Below are positions 25,728 through 33,499 of a DNA stretch of 64,000 nucleotides, one piece after another. The notes under the pieces are model-generated. The model was not told where the DNA came from. It did no database searches and saw nothing but the letters and a program-made list of their open reading frames with translations. A program made the translations under genes and the position numbers. The first letter of the stretch is position 1. The number at the start of each line of letters is the position of its first letter. The DNA comes from Spirochaetota bacterium (lineage in GTDB: Bacteria > Spirochaetota > UBA4802 > JAGODF01): positions 1 to 64,000 of the forward strand of contig JARKUF010000040.1 in NCBI GenBank assembly GCA_029974015.1. Reading direction: 5' to 3'.

Positions 25728-25970
25728 TTACTTCAATTTCTTGATAAAAAACTTTGAAACGTCACCTTCCCTCACTGTGGAAACGATTTCATTGCCGCTG
25801 GTCTTCGCCCAGGCGGGGAAATCGGCGTGGGCCCCGGGGTCGGTGGTTTCCGCCACGAGGACCTGGCCCACCCGCATTTTTTTTACTTGCTGGCTCACTT
25901 TGACGACGGGAAGGGGGCACTTCATCCCTTTCAGGTCCATGGTTATGTCTGCTTTAATGTCTTCGGCCAT
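25728..25970 (-). CDS. tusA: TusA-family sulfur carrier protein
   Basis: The 80-residue protein has the carrier Cys in LKGMKCPLPVVKV (Cys17 of MAEDIKADITMDLKGMKC), followed by the alpha/beta fold ending in a charged strand. The frame is open upstream to 26114, but ATG 25970 follows GAGGAGAAT and gives the standard size. TusA proteins pass persulfide sulfur between partners. It lies 88 bases downstream of dsrE2 on the same strand, a pairing known from sulfur-oxidising and sulfur-trafficking clusters. Confidence 0.92.
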   Translation of the reverse strand: MAEDIKADITMDLKGMKCPLPVVKVSQQVKKMRVGQVLVAETTDPGAHADFPAWAKTSGNEIVSTVREGDVSKFFIKKLK

Positions 25971-26058
25971 TGAAATTCTCCTCTTGTATGGTGTAGTATA
26001 CTGCCGCTCTTGAATATTTTCAAGCCAAATATCGCAGGAGCCCGGGTCGTTATTTCTT

Positions 26059-26598
26059 TCAGATAAAAAGCTGTATCCTGCTGTTTCCGGCTTCTTCAAG
26101 GAATTTGGCCACACCGACGAAATCCCTGCCGGGATAATCGATCATCTCCTCCGGCTTTAATCCCATAAGGTCCATAGACATTTCGCAGATATACAATTTT
26201 ACCTCCAGCTCTGCGGCCAACTGGATCATCTCTTCGAGGGAGGAGACGTTTTTTTTCTTCATGAGGTATTTCATCATTCCGGTACCCATGCCCCCCATGT
26301 GCATCTTGGAGAGCTTCACCTTCCCGGCCCCCTTCGGCAGCATAAATCCGAACATCTTGCCGAAGATATTTTTCCCCTTTGCCCTTTTCTTCTTGTCCCG
26401 CAGGGCCGAGGTCGCCCAGAAGGTGAAGAACATCACGACTTCCATTCCCATGGCCACGGCGCCGGTGGCAATTATGAAGGAGGCCAGAAGCTTGTCCAGG
26501 TCGCCGCTGAACACAACCATGGAAAGCTTGTTTTGGTTAGCGTCTTTCAGTTCCTCCATCCGGGACCTCAGTTCGCCCAGCGTTTGTTGAACATCCAT
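26059..26598 (-). CDS. DsrE2-type membrane-associated sulfurtransferase
   Basis: The 179-residue protein matches the DsrE2 pattern throughout: KLSMVVFSGDLDKLLASFIIATGAVAMGMEV, MFFTFWATSAL, the conserved KLSKMHMGGMG, MMKYLMKKKNV, then CEMSMDLMG with the likely sulfur-binding Cys. The N-terminal 25 residues are charged and helical. It would hand sulfur to TusA, encoded next. Start is ATG 26598 after AGGGGAT. The leader up to nqrF is unusually A/T-rich and probably holds the promoter of the dsrE2-tusA unit. Confidence 0.88.
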   Translation of the reverse strand: MDVQQTLGELRSRMEELKDANQNKLSMVVFSGDLDKLLASFIIATGAVAMGMEVVMFFTFWATSALRDKKKRAKGKNIFGKMFGFMLPKGAGKVKLSKMHMGGMGTGMMKYLMKKKNVSSLEEMIQLAAELEVKLYICEMSMDLMGLKPEEMIDYPGRDFVGVAKFLEEAGNSRIQLFI

Positions 26599-26722: not shown

Positions 26723-27967
26723 TTAAAATCCGAAGTCGTCATATCGCACCATCTCATCATCCACGCCGAGGGAAAAGAGCATCTTTTTCACCGCCTCCAG
26801 CATAAATGGGGGGCCGCATACGTAGTATTCAATGTCCTCCGGGGAAGGGTGGTTCCTGAGGTAGTCCTCGAACAATACCTGATGGATCATCCCCGTGGGG
26901 CCCGTCCAGTTGTCCTCTTCCATCGGTTCCGAGAGGGCCACGTGGAAGCTGAAGTTTTTGTATCTTTTCTCGATGTCGCGAAATTCTTTCGCGTAAAAGA
27001 GCTCGCGCAATGAGCGGGCACCGTACCAGAAGCTTGCCTTCCTCTTCGTTTTAATGGTGAGAAACTGATGGAATATCTGGGAGCGAAGGGGGGCCATGCC
27101 GGCGCCGCCGCCGATGAATACCATCTCCCGGTCCGTGTCCTGAACCGCGAAGTCGCCGTAAGGGCCCGAGACCGTCACCTCGTCGCCGGATTTGCACTTG
27201 AAAATATACGACGACGCCATACCGGGCGGAAGCTCTCTGAACGCTTTTTTCGAGGGGTCCCAGGGGGGCGTGGCTATGCGCACATTGAGTTTGATGATGT
27301 TTCCTTCGGCAGGGTGGTTCGCCATCGAGTAGGCGCGGTTTATCACCGAGCGGTTTTTCGCCCGGATTCCAAGAAGGCCGAGTTTTTTCCAGTCGACGCG
27401 GAACTTCTCGGCGATGTCTATGTCGCTTCCGAAATGGATTTCGAATTCCGGCACGTCGATCTGGATGTAGGCCCCCGGTTCGAAATCGAGTGTTTCCCCG
27501 GGAGGAAGGGAAAGAACGAGCTCCTTAATGAATGTCGCCACGTTTTCGTTGGAAACGACGCTGCATGCGAACCGCTTTACCGAGAAGGCCTCGTCGGGGA
27601 CCCGTATTGCCATGTCCTCCCGGACTTTTACCTGGCATGCCAGGCGCCATCCTTCGCGTTCCTTTTTTCGGCTGATGTAGTTTTGCTCAATGGGGAGGAT
27701 GTCGCCTCCTCCGCTTTCGACGCGGCATGTGCAGGTCCCGCAGGTCCCCTTGCCCCCGCAGGCCGAGGAGAGGAAGATGTTCTTTTCCGCCAGGGCCGTC
27801 AGGAGGGGCCTACCTGGTTCAACCGTAAGGGCACGGGATCCGTCGCCGTTGACGGTAATTTTCACCTTCCCGCGGCGCACTAATTTCTTTTCGGCCTCCA
27901 CGATGAGGGCCGTCAGGAGAAGTATAATCGCCGGAAAGGCCGCGGCGGCGACGAGGACCGTGGCCAT
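26723..27967 (-). CDS. nqrF: Na+-translocating NADH:quinone reductase subunit F
   Basis: The 414-residue protein has one N-terminal membrane helix, a [2Fe-2S] ferredoxin domain with ACGGKGTCGTCTC and a later LACQ (about 68-112), an FAD domain with the RAYSMAN motif, and an NADH-binding domain (FIGGGAGMAP, VCGPPFML). It is the NADH-oxidising entry point of NQR. The frame extends to 28126, but ATG 27967, two bases past the nqrE stop, is the right start. It is the last gene of the nqr operon. Confidence 0.94.
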   Translation of the reverse strand: MATVLVAAAAFPAIILLLTALIVEAEKKLVRRGKVKITVNGDGSRALTVEPGRPLLTALAEKNIFLSSACGGKGTCGTCTCRVESGGGDILPIEQNYISRKKEREGWRLACQVKVREDMAIRVPDEAFSVKRFACSVVSNENVATFIKELVLSLPPGETLDFEPGAYIQIDVPEFEIHFGSDIDIAEKFRVDWKKLGLLGIRAKNRSVINRAYSMANHPAEGNIIKLNVRIATPPWDPSKKAFRELPPGMASSYIFKCKSGDEVTVSGPYGDFAVQDTDREMVFIGGGAGMAPLRSQIFHQFLTIKTKRKASFWYGARSLRELFYAKEFRDIEKRYKNFSFHVALSEPMEEDNWTGPTGMIHQVLFEDYLRNHPSPEDIEYYVCGPPFMLEAVKKMLFSLGVDDEMVRYDDFGF

Positions 27968-27969
27968 TG

Positions 27970-28587
27970 TCAGTCCCCCAGATTCACGCCGGAGAATATC
28001 ATGAACGCGACCGCCATCAGGCCCGTGATGAGCATGGTTATGCCGAGGCCGCGCATTCCACCGGGGATGTTCGAATATCTTAGCTTGTGGCGGATTGCCG
28101 CCATGGTCACGATGGCGAGGAACCATCCGAGGCCGGAACTGAATCCGAAAACGGAGGCCTGGGCCAGGGTGTAGCGGCGTTCAACCATGAATAGCGCCAC
28201 GCCCAATATGGCGCAGTTGACGGTGATGAGGGGGAGGTAAATTCCCAGGGCATTGTATAGGGTGGCGGAAAATTTTTCCACCGCCATTTCCACGATCTGC
28301 ACCATGGCGGCGATGACGGCGATGAAGGTGATGAAAGTAAGGAAGCCAAGGTCCACCCCCGCGAAGCCCGGGCCAAGCCAGGTGAGGGCCCCTTCGCGAA
28401 GCAAGTACTCGTTAAGGAGCCAGTTCACCGGCGCCGTGATGGTGAGGACAAAGACCACGGCCAGTCCGAGTCCCAGGGAAGTTGAGATTTTTTTTGAAAG
28501 GGCCAGGAAGGAGCACATCCCCAAAAAATAGGCGAGGATGATGTTTTCTGTGAATATCGCCTTTATACCGATGTTCACCAGGTCCAT
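27970..28587 (-). CDS. nqrE: NQR subunit E
   Basis: The 205-residue protein has six membrane helices with the NqrE/RnfA signature ([32 protein letters not shown]), each half carrying a Cys that helps bind the intramembrane iron-sulfur centre shared with NqrD. It forms part of the Na+ channel core. The start follows GGGAGGACTGACCTC. It lies four bases from nqrD and two from nqrF. Confidence 0.95.
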
Positions 28588-28591
28588 GAGG

Positions 28592-29206
28592 TCAGTCCTC
28601 CCTGTATCCCGTCATCGTACGCTGAAGCCAGATGATGAGGGAGAGTATAATGAAGGCCCCCGGCGCCAGGACCATGAGGCCGTTGTCGGCATATCCGGCC
28701 AAGTAGAACGGTTCCGGGATTATCCGATGGCCCCAGAGGGAACCAGAGCCTAAGAGCTCCCGAAAGAACCCCACCACAGCGAGGACAAGGGCGTATCCGA
28801 CCCCGTTTCCGACCCCGTCAAGGAACGAAGGAAGGGGCGGGTTAGACATGGCGAAGGCCTCAAGGCGTCCCAGGACGATGCAGTTTGTAATGATGAGGCC
28901 CACGAAGACCGAAAGCTGTTTTGAAAGCTGGAAGGCATATGCCTTAAGGAACTGGTCCACCAGGATCACCAGGGTGGCGATGACGGTCATTTCGATTATT
29001 ATGCGCACCTTTGAGGGAATGCGTTCCCGTATGAGGGATATGACGACGTTCGAAAGGGCCACCACAACGATGACCGAAACTCCCATCACCACGGCGGTTT
29101 TCAGGCGCGAGGTCACCGCCAGGGCGGAGCAGATGCCCAGGATCTGAATGGTTATTGGATTGGCCTCGCTTACCGGCTCAAGGAGAATTTTTTTATCGAA
29201 CGCCAT
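28592..29206 (-). CDS. nqrD: NQR subunit D
   Basis: The 204-residue six-helix protein is homologous to NqrE, with [16 protein letters not shown] and [20 protein letters not shown] containing the paired Cys of the NqrDE iron centre. ATG 29206, preceded by AAGGAGG, gives the standard protein; the frame upstream lies inside nqrC. It overlaps the end of nqrC by 14 bases. Confidence 0.95.
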
Positions 29207-29972
29207 GGGGGCCTCCTTTCTTTTCACGGAGGATGTACGGCCCGTAGAGCGCAAGGCTCTTCTTTAAAAGGGCCGTGACTCCTTTGCCGGTAAGGGTCGC
29301 CCCGGTGATGCCGTCCACCTGGTGGAGCGATCCCGGGAGCGACGTATCGGCCCTGTCCTTCATCACCGCCACGGAGACGAGCTTTTTCCCGGCGTCGAAT
29401 ATCTTTTTACCGATGAAACGCGCGCGGAATTCCGGTGACTGTATTTCTCCGCCGAGCCCCGGCGTTTCCCCATGCTTGTGGAAGGTGATGGCGAGGACCG
29501 TTTCTAGATCACGTTCAAGCGCTATATAGCCGTATATGGAGGACCAGAGCCCCTTTCCGTACACGGGAAAACAATACGCCGTCGTTTTTCCATCCTGGAC
29601 CCTGATGAAGACCGGAAGCCGCCTTTCCGCGGGTGCCTTGTCCATTTCCCGGGCCAGGTCTATGAGCTCGGCTTTCACGTCGCTTTTTGCCGGGGCGCCG
29701 GTACCATCGACTATGAGGGACTTCACCTTTTCCCGGTAACAGCAGGCGATATCGGCGCAATCCTTCCCGCTTAGCACTCTGGAGGCGCAATCTCCGGCCC
29801 CGGCTTCCGTCATAAGCCCCAGGGCCTGTAGGATGTTTCGCTTGATGTCCGCCTCCTGGGCCAGCTCCTGCCGCGGCCTGAGGGCCTGGGAAGCCAGGGC
29901 AAGGAGGAGGGCGCATGCCAGGGCCACCCCGAAGGAAAAGAGAAAGGTGTAGGAGTTACCCTGCCTTTGCAC
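29193..29972 (-). CDS. nqrC: NQR subunit C
   Basis: The 259-residue protein has one N-terminal membrane helix (about 8-28) and a periplasmic FMN domain. The covalent FMN site lies in [13 protein letters not shown], where the second Thr is the expected attachment residue. ApbE must attach the flavin, and no apbE gene is in the window. The start is GTG 29972 with AGGAGG upstream, overlapping nqrB by 17 bases. The central region is rich in Cys ([15 protein letters not shown]), which is not usual for NqrC. Confidence 0.93.
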
Positions 29973-31125
29973 GGAAACGCCTCCTTCTCATATGTATTCT
30001 AAGAGACGTGTAGTCTATGAGGGGTGCGAAAACATTCATGCACAATATCGCGAGCATGGTCCCCTCTTCGTATGCAGGATTGAGGACCCTCACGAGGATG
30101 ATGAGGACTCCGATGCAAAAGCCGTAGACATATTTGCCGCCGTTTGTCGATGCCGCCGATACCGGGTCCGTGGCCATGAAAACAGCGCCGAAGGCAAAGC
30201 TTCCCATGGTCAGGTGATACTGAAGGGGTAGGGCCATGATGGAGGCCGGTGAGGGGGCCAGGGCATTGAAGAGAAAAACCGCAGCGGCGCCGCCCGCAAA
30301 GACGGAAAAAATAATGCGCCAGCTTCCAACTCCCGTGGCAATAAGGATGCTCGCCCCAAGTAGGATGGCAGCTTCCGATGTTTCCCCAATGCACCCGGGA
30401 TGGAGGCCAATGAACAACTTCCAGAGGCCGTATCCTTTGTCCGCCAGATGCCCCATGGCGCCGGCTGCGGCCTCGTGGGCGACGGCCAGGGGGGTTGCCA
30501 TGGTGAAGGCGTCCACGGGGGCGCCCGATGTGAGGGTCCAGACATCATGTCCAGAAAGGCTTTTGGGATAGGCAAAGAAGATGAAGGCCCGGGCCACCAG
30601 GGCCGGGTTGAAGATGTTCATCCCTGTGCCGCCGAAGACTTCCTTCCCCAGGACCACGGCGAATGCCGTGGCGAGGGCCAACTGCCATAGGGGTATCGTG
30701 GGTGGCATGATGAGGGGGATGAGCATCCCCGTAACAAAGAAGCCCTCGCTCATTTCGTGCTTCCGGACGATGGCGAATGCGAGCTCAATTGAAAGTCCAA
30801 CGGCATAGGTGACGGCGTAGAGTGGCGCCAACACTTTAAGGCCCTCTATCATGCTCGGAAGGAATTCCGGAGTTAAGCCCTGGGATAGGAAATGTTGATG
30901 CCCAAGATTGTACATGCCGAAAAAGGCGCAGGGGACCAGGGCGATGACGACGGTCATCATCATCCGCTTGAGGTCGTAGGCGTCGCGGATATGGGCCCCT
31001 CCCGTTGTGGGCCTCGGGAGCCGATAGAAGAAGGTCAAGAGGGCATCGTATATGGGCCAGGCGGCGCGCATGCGCCCTCCCTCCTCGAAATGCGGCTTCA
31101 GTGCGTTAAAAATTTTGCCAATCAT
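29956..31125 (-). CDS. nqrB: NQR subunit B
   Basis: The 389-residue protein has about ten membrane helices with the NqrB/RnfD pattern (RPTTGGAHIRDAYDLKRMM, GGTGMNIFNPALVARAF, FMATDPVSAASTNGGKYVYG). The FMN-bearing Thr is in FTMATPLAVA. It binds riboflavin and quinone and forms the main Na+ path. It starts at ATG 31125 with no clear ribosome site, and a 178-base gap with a repeat copy separates it from nqrA, which is odd inside an otherwise tight operon. Confidence 0.94.
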   Translation of the reverse strand: MIGKIFNALKPHFEEGGRMRAAWPIYDALLTFFYRLPRPTTGGAHIRDAYDLKRMMMTVVIALVPCAFFGMYNLGHQHFLSQGLTPEFLPSMIEGLKVLAPLYAVTYAVGLSIELAFAIVRKHEMSEGFFVTGMLIPLIMPPTIPLWQLALATAFAVVLGKEVFGGTGMNIFNPALVARAFIFFAYPKSLSGHDVWTLTSGAPVDAFTMATPLAVAHEAAAGAMGHLADKGYGLWKLFIGLHPGCIGETSEAAILLGASILIATGVGSWRIIFSVFAGGAAAVFLFNALAPSPASIMALPLQYHLTMGSFAFGAVFMATDPVSAASTNGGKYVYGFCIGVLIILVRVLNPAYEEGTMLAILCMNVFAPLIDYTSLRIHMRRRRFRAKAG

Positions 31126-31302: not shown

Positions 31303-32652
31303 TCATCCTTCCCGCATAATCATGTTGATGCCGTCGCGGAGTACCTTCTGCATGTCGATCTTCGACGGGCAGACGTATTCGCATATCGCAATCTCTTCTT
31401 CCGCGATCTCATAGATTCCGAGTCCTTCCATTTCTTCTATATCGCCGGCGAGGATGCTTTTTATCAGGTGGACCGGGTATATGTCCATGGGAAGCACCTT
31501 TTCGTAGTTGCCCGTGGCAACGAAGGGTCGCAGACCTCCGTTCATGTTTGTATCTAGGTCGAAGAGGCCCCCGGGGAAGAGGCGGGAAAGGAAAGAATTC
31601 GAGGCGCTTTCTTTCCTGAGGCCCGGGCGTATCCATCCGAAAAGCTCGGGTCTCGCAGTCTCCCGGATGACGCTCACCTGATTGTCGAAAAATCCCGTGA
31701 AGCCCCGGAAACCGGCGTTTCTGCCCGTGAGAACATTCCCCGCAATATACCGCGCTCCGGGGTCTTCTTCGCCCCCCAGAAGGTGGCCGATTTCCGCGCC
31801 CTGTACAGTGCGCAGATGCGTGCGGATAGGCGAGGCGGGACCGCCCACAGCGATCACTGTATCGTAGGAAAGCCGCCCCGTGGCGAAAAGCCTCCCAATG
31901 CGGACAGTCCCTTCCAGGGTGCAGTACCATACGATGTCCCTGGGGCCCCTCACCGGGGCGATGTGGTGGATCTGCACGCCCACAGTTCCGGAGGGATGGG
32001 GCCCCTTAAAACTGTGCGCCCGGACCCCCGGAATTCCTGAAGCGAGGCGGGCGGTTTTCCCATCGCCGTGTTGCACCGAAAGGTGGACTTTCCCGGAGGT
32101 TAGGCGGCTCAGAATACTGAGGCCCTGTGTCAAATACTCTTCATTTCCTGAGAGTACGGTCCCCGTGTCCGGGGCCAGGGGAGAGGCGTCGAATGCCGAT
32201 ACGAAGATATCGCGGGGCAGATCGGCGGGCCTCGCCTGGACAGCGAAGGGGCGTTGCCGCAGGAAAGCGAAGAGTCCGGTTTTCACAAGGACCTCGACGA
32301 TGACCTCCCTGGAGGCTGCGCGGGCCAACCCGGGCGGCGGCTTTTCGGCGGTGCCCTTTCCGTCGCCGGCGATGATAATCTCCGCAATTCTGCGGCGGTC
32401 CCCACGGTTGATCCGCTCGATGCGCCCGCTTAAAGGTGCAGTGAAGACCGGAGCGCCGGATGTCTTATCGGTGAAAACGGGAGTTCCTGCTTTCACTCGG
32501 TCTCCTTCCCTCACGAGAAGGGAGGGGGTGATGCCGGGGAAATCCGCCGGGACCAGGGCAGCCCGGGAGGGCATGCCCCTGTCTTTGCATTCAGAAGAAG
32601 GGGCCCCATCGAGGCGTATGGTGAAACCTTTTTTCAGGGTGAAATCGGCCAT
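31303..32652 (-). CDS. nqrA: NQR subunit A
   Basis: The 449-residue protein shows FTLKKGFTIRLDGAP, PLSGRIERINRG, FVSAFDASPLAPD, GFFDNQVSVIRE and the C-terminal ICEYVCPSKIDMQKVLRDGI. It lacks the ferredoxin motifs that its relative RnfC has, so the complex is NQR and not Rnf. It is the peripheral, cytoplasmic-face subunit. The real start is ATG 32652, which overlaps the stop of the small upstream gene (TAATG). The open frame above it is the wrong frame for that gene. Confidence 0.94.
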   Translation of the reverse strand: MADFTLKKGFTIRLDGAPSSECKDRGMPSRAALVPADFPGITPSLLVREGDRVKAGTPVFTDKTSGAPVFTAPLSGRIERINRGDRRRIAEIIIAGDGKGTAEKPPPGLARAASREVIVEVLVKTGLFAFLRQRPFAVQARPADLPRDIFVSAFDASPLAPDTGTVLSGNEEYLTQGLSILSRLTSGKVHLSVQHGDGKTARLASGIPGVRAHSFKGPHPSGTVGVQIHHIAPVRGPRDIVWYCTLEGTVRIGRLFATGRLSYDTVIAVGGPASPIRTHLRTVQGAEIGHLLGGEEDPGARYIAGNVLTGRNAGFRGFTGFFDNQVSVIRETARPELFGWIRPGLRKESASNSFLSRLFPGGLFDLDTNMNGGLRPFVATGNYEKVLPMDIYPVHLIKSILAGDIEEMEGLGIYEIAEEEIAICEYVCPSKIDMQKVLRDGINMIMREG

Positions 32653-32822
32653 TATCTGTCGCCGTTGCCTCCGGTTCTGCAGGCGCCCGTGGAGTTTCCG
32701 CAGGTGCAGTGTCCGGAGGGCCCGACACAGCCTCCAGGTGCGCCTTTTTTTCTTGAGGCGAATTGCAAAGCCGCCATGAAGATCAATATAAAAAGAATAG
32801 TAATAATGAGGGTCGTCGACAC
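32652..32822 (-). CDS. NqrM-like small Cys-rich membrane protein
   Basis: This 56-residue gene is easy to miss. GTG 32822, with GGAGAAATAAAC before it, opens a frame of one membrane helix (STTLIITILFILIFMAALQF), a basic stop-transfer RKK, and a tail with Cys32, Cys39, Cys41 and Cys48 (GGCVGPSGHCTCGNSTGAC). Its TAA overlaps the nqrA ATG, so it is coupled to nqr translation. The layout (single helix, then a short cytoplasmic Cys cluster) is that of NqrM (DUF539), which is needed to build the iron site in NqrD/E. NqrM genes usually lie downstream of nqrF. A FeoB-associated Cys-rich protein is the alternative reading. Confidence 0.65.
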   Translation of the reverse strand: MSTTLIITILFILIFMAALQFASRKKGAPGGCVGPSGHCTCGNSTGACRTGGNGDR

Positions 32823-32874
32823 GTTTATTTCTCCAGGGCCGTCCTCGTCCGAATATATCGATTATGATGAAAGA

Positions 32875-32940
32875 AGGCAACCTCTTAAACTAGGGTTTCC
32901 CCGACCGCCTAAAGGGGGGGGGGCGGGGAAACCTATTAAT
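32875..32940 (-). repeat. Half copy of the two-hairpin repeat upstream of the nqr operon
   Basis: It holds GGCAACCTCTTAAACTAGG, the stem TTTCCCCGACCGCC, a run of ten G (32914-32923) and CGGGGAAACCT. It lies 53 bases from the NqrM-like start, where the nqr promoter should be. The remaining bases to 33052 hold only the leader of the next gene. Confidence 0.6.
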
Positions 32941-33052: not shown

Positions 33053-33499
33053 ATGCAAAAAAGAAGAATATTGCTCCTGACGGCGGCCTGCGCGGTCCTT
33101 GCAGGGTCCTGCGCCGGGGCGCCCCAGGTCCGTCACTCCGATACCGGCTGGCAATCCGACGACGTCTTTCGGGTCCGTGCCGCCGGGTTGTCGGAGGGCG
33201 GCGGGCCCGTTAGCCTAAGGGAATTCAGGGCAAAAAAGGCCGCCGTGGAAATGGCCAGGTATATTGTCCTGGAGGAGTTCACGGCATGGATAATTCTGGG
33301 ACTGGATGGTGGAGGGCCGGGATATGACGAAGCGATGGGAAGGGTAAAACATGAGTTTGCCGCGGCCGCTTCGAAGGGAAACGTGGCCCATGAGGAATAC
33401 GACGCCGGGGGCAATTGTTTAATCATCTACGAGGTTACGGGGCCGTGTTTGCGACAGTCCCTGGCGAAGCTGAGAAACCAAATGGGCCTTGGCCGGTGA
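33053..33499 (+). CDS. Small lipoprotein of unknown function
   Basis: The 148-residue precursor has a lipoprotein signal peptide ending LAGSC (Cys20). The mature part contains FRVRAAGLSEGGGPVSLREFRAKKAAVEMARY, reminiscent of LPP20-type lipoproteins, whose conserved part begins with a similar Ala/Lys-rich helix. It is divergent from the nqr operon and convergent with the EAL gene (nine bases between stops). It follows AGGATTTTTC. Function unknown. Confidence 0.75.
   Translation: MQKRRILLLTAACAVLAGSCAGAPQVRHSDTGWQSDDVFRVRAAGLSEGGGPVSLREFRAKKAAVEMARYIVLEEFTAWIILGLDGGGPGYDEAMGRVKHEFAAAASKGNVAHEEYDAGGNCLIIYEVTGPCLRQSLAKLRNQMGLGR

Follow-up and report, generated by a model that had tools for sequence, protein, structure and literature searches.

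A small gene at the head of the nqr operon

The window, by which we mean the whole 64,000-nucleotide stretch of Spirochaetota DNA analysed here, contains a complete nqrABCDEF operon, all six subunits of which score over their NCBIfam equivalog cut-offs, and a small open reading frame stands first in it, directly ahead of nqrA (Table 1). NqrD and NqrE each carry two motifs that we take to be the Cys motifs of the intramembrane iron site. The gene for the other maturation factor, apbE, is present in one copy in the genome, which is located on contig C2 and not on the nqr contig.

Table 1. Features of the nqr operon and of the small gene at its head (window coordinates)
Feature	Position	Strand	Remarks
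ribosome-binding site GGAG	32831..32834	-	8 nt ahead of GTG; read directly
nqrM-like gene	32652..32822	-	56 codons, GTG start (32822), TAA stop
membrane-helix codons, residues 2-26	32745..32819	-	AlphaFold2 helix and hydropathy
Cys-tail codons (Cys32, Cys39, Cys41, Cys48)	32679..32729	-	alignments of relatives: first Cys and close pair conserved
nqrA	31303..32652	-	NF003761/TIGR01936 over cut-off
nqrB	29956..31125	-	NCBIfam equivalog over cut-off
nqrC	29193..29972	-	NCBIfam equivalog over cut-off
nqrD	28592..29206	-	NCBIfam equivalog over cut-off; start set at MAFDKK; Cys motifs GICSAL, TNCIVL
nqrE	27970..28587	-	NCBIfam equivalog over cut-off; Cys motifs GMCSFL, VNCAIL
nqrF	26723..27967	-	TIGR01941 over cut-off; start set at MATVLV

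The product of the small frame is a protein of 56 aa, MSTTLIITILFILIFMAALQFASRKKGAPGGCVGPSGHCTCGNSTGACRTGGNGDR. The initial annotation had proposed here an NqrM-like gene of 56 codons with a good ribosome site, one membrane helix, four Cys and a TAATG overlap with the nqrA start, and these structural details proved accurate: frame and ribosome site are exactly in place, the AlphaFold2 model consists of a single helix (residues 1-20 average pLDDT 94; the tail is of low confidence) in agreement with hydropathy, there are four Cys, and the overlap amounts to one shared base, the last A of TAA. A basic stretch (RKK) follows the helix and is succeeded by the Cys-rich tail, in which the first Cys is surrounded by GGCVG. 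Its length, at first supposed to be short for an NqrM, is not unusual, since the annotated NqrM of Paracoccus aminophilus has 54 aa. At the three codon positions the GC content is 0.42/0.60/0.60, which departs from the values of nqrA-E, as expected from a tail rich in Gly, Cys and Ala, and is not counted as a positive sign for a gene.

Two overlapping sigma-70-like sites are found at 32852-32888 (-), just ahead of the small gene (2 versus a mean of 0.5 in shuffled sequences), and their place fits a promoter ahead of this gene rather than directly ahead of nqrA. At 33053-33499 (+) a divergent 148-aa frame with a lipoprotein-like N-terminus and no Pfam match adjoins the operon. At the other end, genes of the DsrE_2 and TusA families lie directly downstream of nqrF (25728-26598, -). 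Of the other loci compared, only two, both from Cloacimonadota, have a DsrE-like gene in the neighbourhood of nqrA: it immediately precedes nqrA in L128 and lies some 7 kb away in L124. DsrE and TusA may, as an idea, supply sulfur to the NQR cluster; the link between NQR and this pair was dropped because the pairing is not conserved.

Conservation upstream of nqrA

Among the 118 relatives searched (own genome included), 16 possess nqrA, 13 of them over the cut-off. The window's order provides 13 nqrA loci (G000, G001, G006, G007, G016 with two, G019, G024, G030, G032, G035, G037 and G039), and 11 of these have, just upstream of nqrA and on the same strand, a frame that encodes 56-68 aa from the conserved Met onwards, with a helix and 3-5 Cys, so that the absence of conservation envisaged as a refutation of the initial annotation is not what we observe. 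There are two exceptions: in G019 the frame is found behind nqrF, and in G039 only 67 nt of contig precede the nqrA match. G016 harbours two nqr operons (L109 on G016:C21 and L110 on G016:C108), each headed by its own NqrM-like gene. In the same-genus relative G001, whose frame matches the window protein at 39% over 49 positions, the one-base overlap with nqrA recurs as TGATG. Cys32, Cys39 and Cys41 are invariant in the alignment of the order family, as are the equivalent columns of a 27-row alignment (A6) from which the window was excluded, while Cys48 is not conserved among the order relatives.

Frames of this kind rarely arise by chance: a filter that asks for a helix, three or more Cys behind it and a closely spaced Cys pair lets through about 0.003 frames per 400 nt on a single strand (18 passes in 2.6 million strand-bases, family members excluded). 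Furthermore, dN/dS amounts to 0.45-0.61 in four pairs of relatives, and one of the four has a pN/pS of 0.50 in the proper frame, compared with 1.02 and 1.44 once the frame is shifted either way; as the sequences are short, these codon statistics are to be read as support for a coding gene, not as proof. Altogether, the frame is almost certainly a real gene.

Family models and intermediate sequences

The small protein is recognised by no Pfam or NCBIfam model. NqrM (DUF539, PF04400; curated cut-off 22 bits) is not listed for it at E values up to 10, where the sole Pfam line is the FeoB-associated family PF12669 (13.9 bits, E 0.065, cut-off 27 bits). The motif GSCGG around the first Cys, present in all 10 canonical NqrM rows of our alignment, is absent as well; since both cut-off and motif were tested with this outcome, we do not file the window frame as a member of PF04400. 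The DUF539 profile search that had been proposed as a check thus gave no match: the frame is too diverged for the Pfam model, and its connection to NqrM leads through intermediate sequences. A bona fide nqrM elsewhere, named at the outset as evidence to the contrary, was likewise not encountered, as no frame in the 3.26-Mb assembly (94% complete) exceeds the PF04400 cut-off and the best match (14.9 bits) is situated inside a 444-aa frame elsewhere in the genome. Searching 59 relatives with the window frame as a single sequence returned weak matches (best E 0.017 outside its own genome), some of which (G006, G001) turned out to fall immediately ahead of nqrA, the others being noise. PF04400 searches of relatives yielded mostly short sub-threshold matches in long or broken frames, and the two loci inspected (L043, L044) lack such a small gene. 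Solved structures compared with a 37-row profile of the family (see below) gave no match up to E 1.

Intermediates do exist within the phylum. Pfam-positive NqrMs are found in other families (G067, G179, G203), and close NqrM variants downstream of nqrF, e.g. ...GRSEIKGSCGGVGGGACSVCGNDASKC, are intermediate between canonical NqrM and the ...KGC...CAxCG...C of the window's order. An iterative HMM search, seeded with the three Pfam-positive NqrMs and run over 10,105 frames of 113 loci irrespective of position, converged on 38 frames, which the window frame joined last, in the fourth round; the 37-row model of that round held 10 of the 11 upstream frames of the order. When left out of the model, the window frame ranks directly behind the members, with E 1.5e-4 to 9.3e-3 in six runs with null2 on (different alignments, with or without the same-genus relative) and E 1.6e-5 to 3.3e-3 with null2 off, where it stands one rank lower in one of the six. 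Left out in this way, it outranks all other frames of the window, 634 in total, with E 3.6e-5 against 0.73 for the runner-up, and a 37-row model without it finds it as the best match in its whole genome (E 0.0036, 19.5 bits; next E 0.09, 15.0 bits).

Aligned by hhalign with 10 canonical NqrMs, three of which are annotated nqrM from alphaproteobacterial plasmids, the order family obtains 97.8% and a score of 63.6, which was reached by none of 100 tail-permuted and none of 100 fully column-permuted controls, although the tail-permuted median of 48.9 indicates that the helix carries much of this score. The window frame alone is borderline (55%). Used by itself, the strictly canonical model lists the upstream frame in two of the 10 order genomes having one, namely G001, where it is the sole match (E 2.6e-4), and G016 (E 0.109); among the 634 frames of the window, the window frame is outside its top five. 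With model A6 the window frame reaches 5.7 bits, which puts it third among the 634 frames, and it goes unlisted in a search of its own genome; a 10-row model of the order scores it at 8.7 bits, next to 8.6 for another frame. Under the 27-row, order and canonical models, respectively 279, 472 and 84 of 1000 tail-shuffled copies score at least as high as the window frame. Given such weak single-frame scores, its identity rests on its position, on the same-genus relative and on the family as a whole. The initial designation as NqrM-like therefore stands for the order family by profile, whereas the window frame by itself stays borderline and below the Pfam cut-off; overall we consider it very probably a homologue of NqrM.

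Co-occurrence with NQR

In the phylum, nqrA was found in 30 of 392 genomes (27 over the cut-off), while the Pfam model flags NqrM over its cut-off in only three of the 392. With A6 as query, 22 matches at E <= 9.7e-9 were obtained in 21 genomes, all of them nqrA-positive; the 362 genomes without nqrA gave none, and the next match has E 1.1e-3. Of the 21 genomes, 16 had supplied rows to A6, and G136, G152, G188, G213 and G219 were held out. Nine of the 30 lack a strong A6 match: the window's own genome, G019 (whose gene is a row of a further model, A7), G039, G148, G182, G185, G217, and G100 and G106 (in both of which nqrA is below the cut-off). Hence no gene is recognised in five of the 27 genomes with nqrA over the cut-off (G039, G148, G182, G185 and G217), several of which are incomplete assemblies. 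A match in G106 (E 7.2e-4), which covers one helix with HCCDADR at its end within a 124-aa frame, was not taken as NqrM.

A second held-out test applied A7 to 16 genomes from 80 named NQR loci, chosen for showing no such gene near nqrA. Twelve contain one match each at E <= 2.8e-5 and a thirteenth a match at E 0.0031; the 12 of these 13 frames that were listed (all but that of L220) each have a helix and a Cys tail. With A7 no NqrM-like gene was detected in two Cloacimonadota genomes (L124, L128) and one Neomarinimicrobiota genome (L138), in which NQR is present. Genes of the same kind are present in many bacteria in which standard searches overlook them.

The unlinked NqrM-like genes (L216-L228) occur in Bacteroidales, in Calditrichota and in two other Spirochaetota genomes. 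Many of the Bacteroidales forms show a FPxT/S...HNKxMRKxGIxCA-like stretch after the helix, and the one form of the Bacteroidales type that was tested matched no Pfam or NCBIfam model.

Gene position and operon history

Among the 80 named loci, the small gene is located directly upstream of nqrA in all four from Verrucomicrobia/Lentisphaeria and in four of the seven from Spirochaetes (L120, L121, L122 and L125, whose lengths and coordinates suggest that they are the contigs of G032, G016, G007 and G030, respectively); of the other Spirochaetes loci, L130 ends at nqrA, and L141 and L159 are without the gene nearby. In 14 Bacteroidetes loci the gene lies behind nqrF on the opposite strand. On a quick tree of NqrA+NqrB from 50 chosen loci, 32 of them with known gene position, upstream versus downstream placement amounts to a single change: all 14 upstream rows are united in one starred clade (SH-aLRT 99), together with six rows for which no gene was seen near. 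Two of the latter kind of locus, L141 and L159, belong to the upstream clade and yet have the gene elsewhere in the genome, which implies that the upstream place was either lost there or gained later.

G019 (L101, G019:C28:1-13500) possesses an operon of the downstream type and, despite its membership in the window's order, groups with the downstream rows, indicating that gene position follows the operon lineage and not the host. This grouping of its NQR operon with distant lineages is likely due to horizontal replacement. The rearranged position proposed for the window gene is thus borne out, in that it is the first gene of the operon, upstream of nqrA, versus the downstream place of canonical nqrM.

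Comparison with NqrM and other small Cys-rich proteins

Canonical nqrM usually follows apbE downstream of nqrF. The NqrM paper is said to have defined the protein as a maturation factor in proteobacteria, and four conserved Cys, the first one essential, were reportedly described by Kostyrko et al. With this protein the window frame shares one N-terminal helix, a short basic stretch and a Cys tail in which the first Cys and the close pair align, as well as the tie to nqr, strong family matches in the phylum sample being confined to genomes in which nqrA was found. It differs in the missing GSCGG, in its score below the Pfam cut-off, and in a gene that is first instead of last in the operon and has no apbE beside it. 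The solitary or convergent NqrM-like frames of Bacteroidales, Calditrichota and other Spirochaetota are gathered by the same profile and likewise have a helix and a Cys tail, but possess other motifs after the helix (e.g. FPETxxxHNKEMRKRGIxCA in Bacteroidales) and are situated downstream, on the opposite strand or unlinked. In the portions of the literature accessible to us, canonical NqrM is a maturation factor (PMC12174285), and apbE and nqrM are placed downstream of nqrABCDEF in V. cholerae. No M-first nqr operon is described in the accessible portions of the literature searched on NqrM/DUF539 and nqr operons, which included few subscription papers; similarly, the terms upstream and apbE are absent from the part available of a paper on nqr evolution (PMC4014512).

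Alternatively, the frame could encode another small Cys-rich iron protein, of the FeoB-associated type (PF12669), recruited beside nqr and NqrM-like by convergence. Size, single helix and Cys tail agree with that family, which is the only one listed by Pfam for the window frame and scores weakly in two order relatives (14.8 and 7.9 bits), and the large share of the helix in the profile similarity to NqrM leaves room for convergence. Every PF12669 score, however, is far under the cut-off, and genes of this family sit beside feoB, whereas the window frame adjoins nqrA on one side and the divergent frame without a Pfam match on the other. The gene moreover tracks nqr (all 21 strong-match genomes being nqrA-positive), and the order relatives are connected to NqrM by profile, in a graded series that leads to Pfam-positive NqrMs; we therefore regard this origin as improbable.

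If the protein were instead a small subunit, structural or regulatory, that remains part of the mature complex, whether derived from NqrM or not, this would explain the linkage to nqrA and the one-base overlap seen in the window's genus (TAATG, TGATG), both of which resemble a subunit gene. Relatives located far from nqr or on the opposite strand fit a helper better than a stoichiometric subunit, and the maturation function of canonical NqrM, according to the accessible part of PMC12174285, points the same way, which makes a subunit a still slimmer prospect. That the frame is fortuitous, an open stretch in the nqrA leader or part of an N-terminal extension of nqrA, is barely credible: the nqrA frame is indeed open upstream of its ATG, back to 32880, and the small frame has an atypical GC content across codon positions, but the chance rate given above has to be set against 11 of 13 loci and against the dN/dS values in the frame. 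NqrA profiles, moreover, match from residue 6-10 of the 454-aa form that was searched, i.e. from the MADFTLKKG start, and in the other M-first loci examined the nqrA start lies behind or overlaps the stop of the small frame (none was found for L118).

Proposed role and implications

We thus hold, with good confidence, that the window frame represents a divergent NqrM subfamily which has been relocated to the head of the operon (M-A-B-C-D-E-F) and is translationally coupled to nqrA. The protein probably has the same maturation role at the iron site as NqrM, and a loader is plausibly needed, because NqrD and NqrE carry the Cys motifs of that site. In the mechanism we propose, the tail would face the cytoplasm, as the positive-inside rule predicts from the Lys/Arg patch after the helix, and its Cys would bind iron; the iron (or a cluster) would then be handed over, during assembly of the subunits, to the Cys site buried between NqrD and NqrE. 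Being synthesised first and coupled to nqrA could keep the helper in step with the complex.

On a wider scale, we lean towards the view that NqrM is a near-universal partner of Na+-NQR, overlooked outside Proteobacteria where it diverges beyond the Pfam and NCBIfam models, that one ancient NQR lineage (Spirochaetota, Verrucomicrobia, Lentisphaeria) carries the M-A-B-C-D-E-F arrangement, and that the operon moved between phyla as a unit. For the phylum, a candidate iron-site loader gene can now be named in most genomes with nqrA, where Pfam had flagged three against 27 with nqrA over the cut-off, and the alignment from this analysis finds the divergent gene. The 56-aa protein would offer a minimal natural NqrM for mapping which Cys matter.
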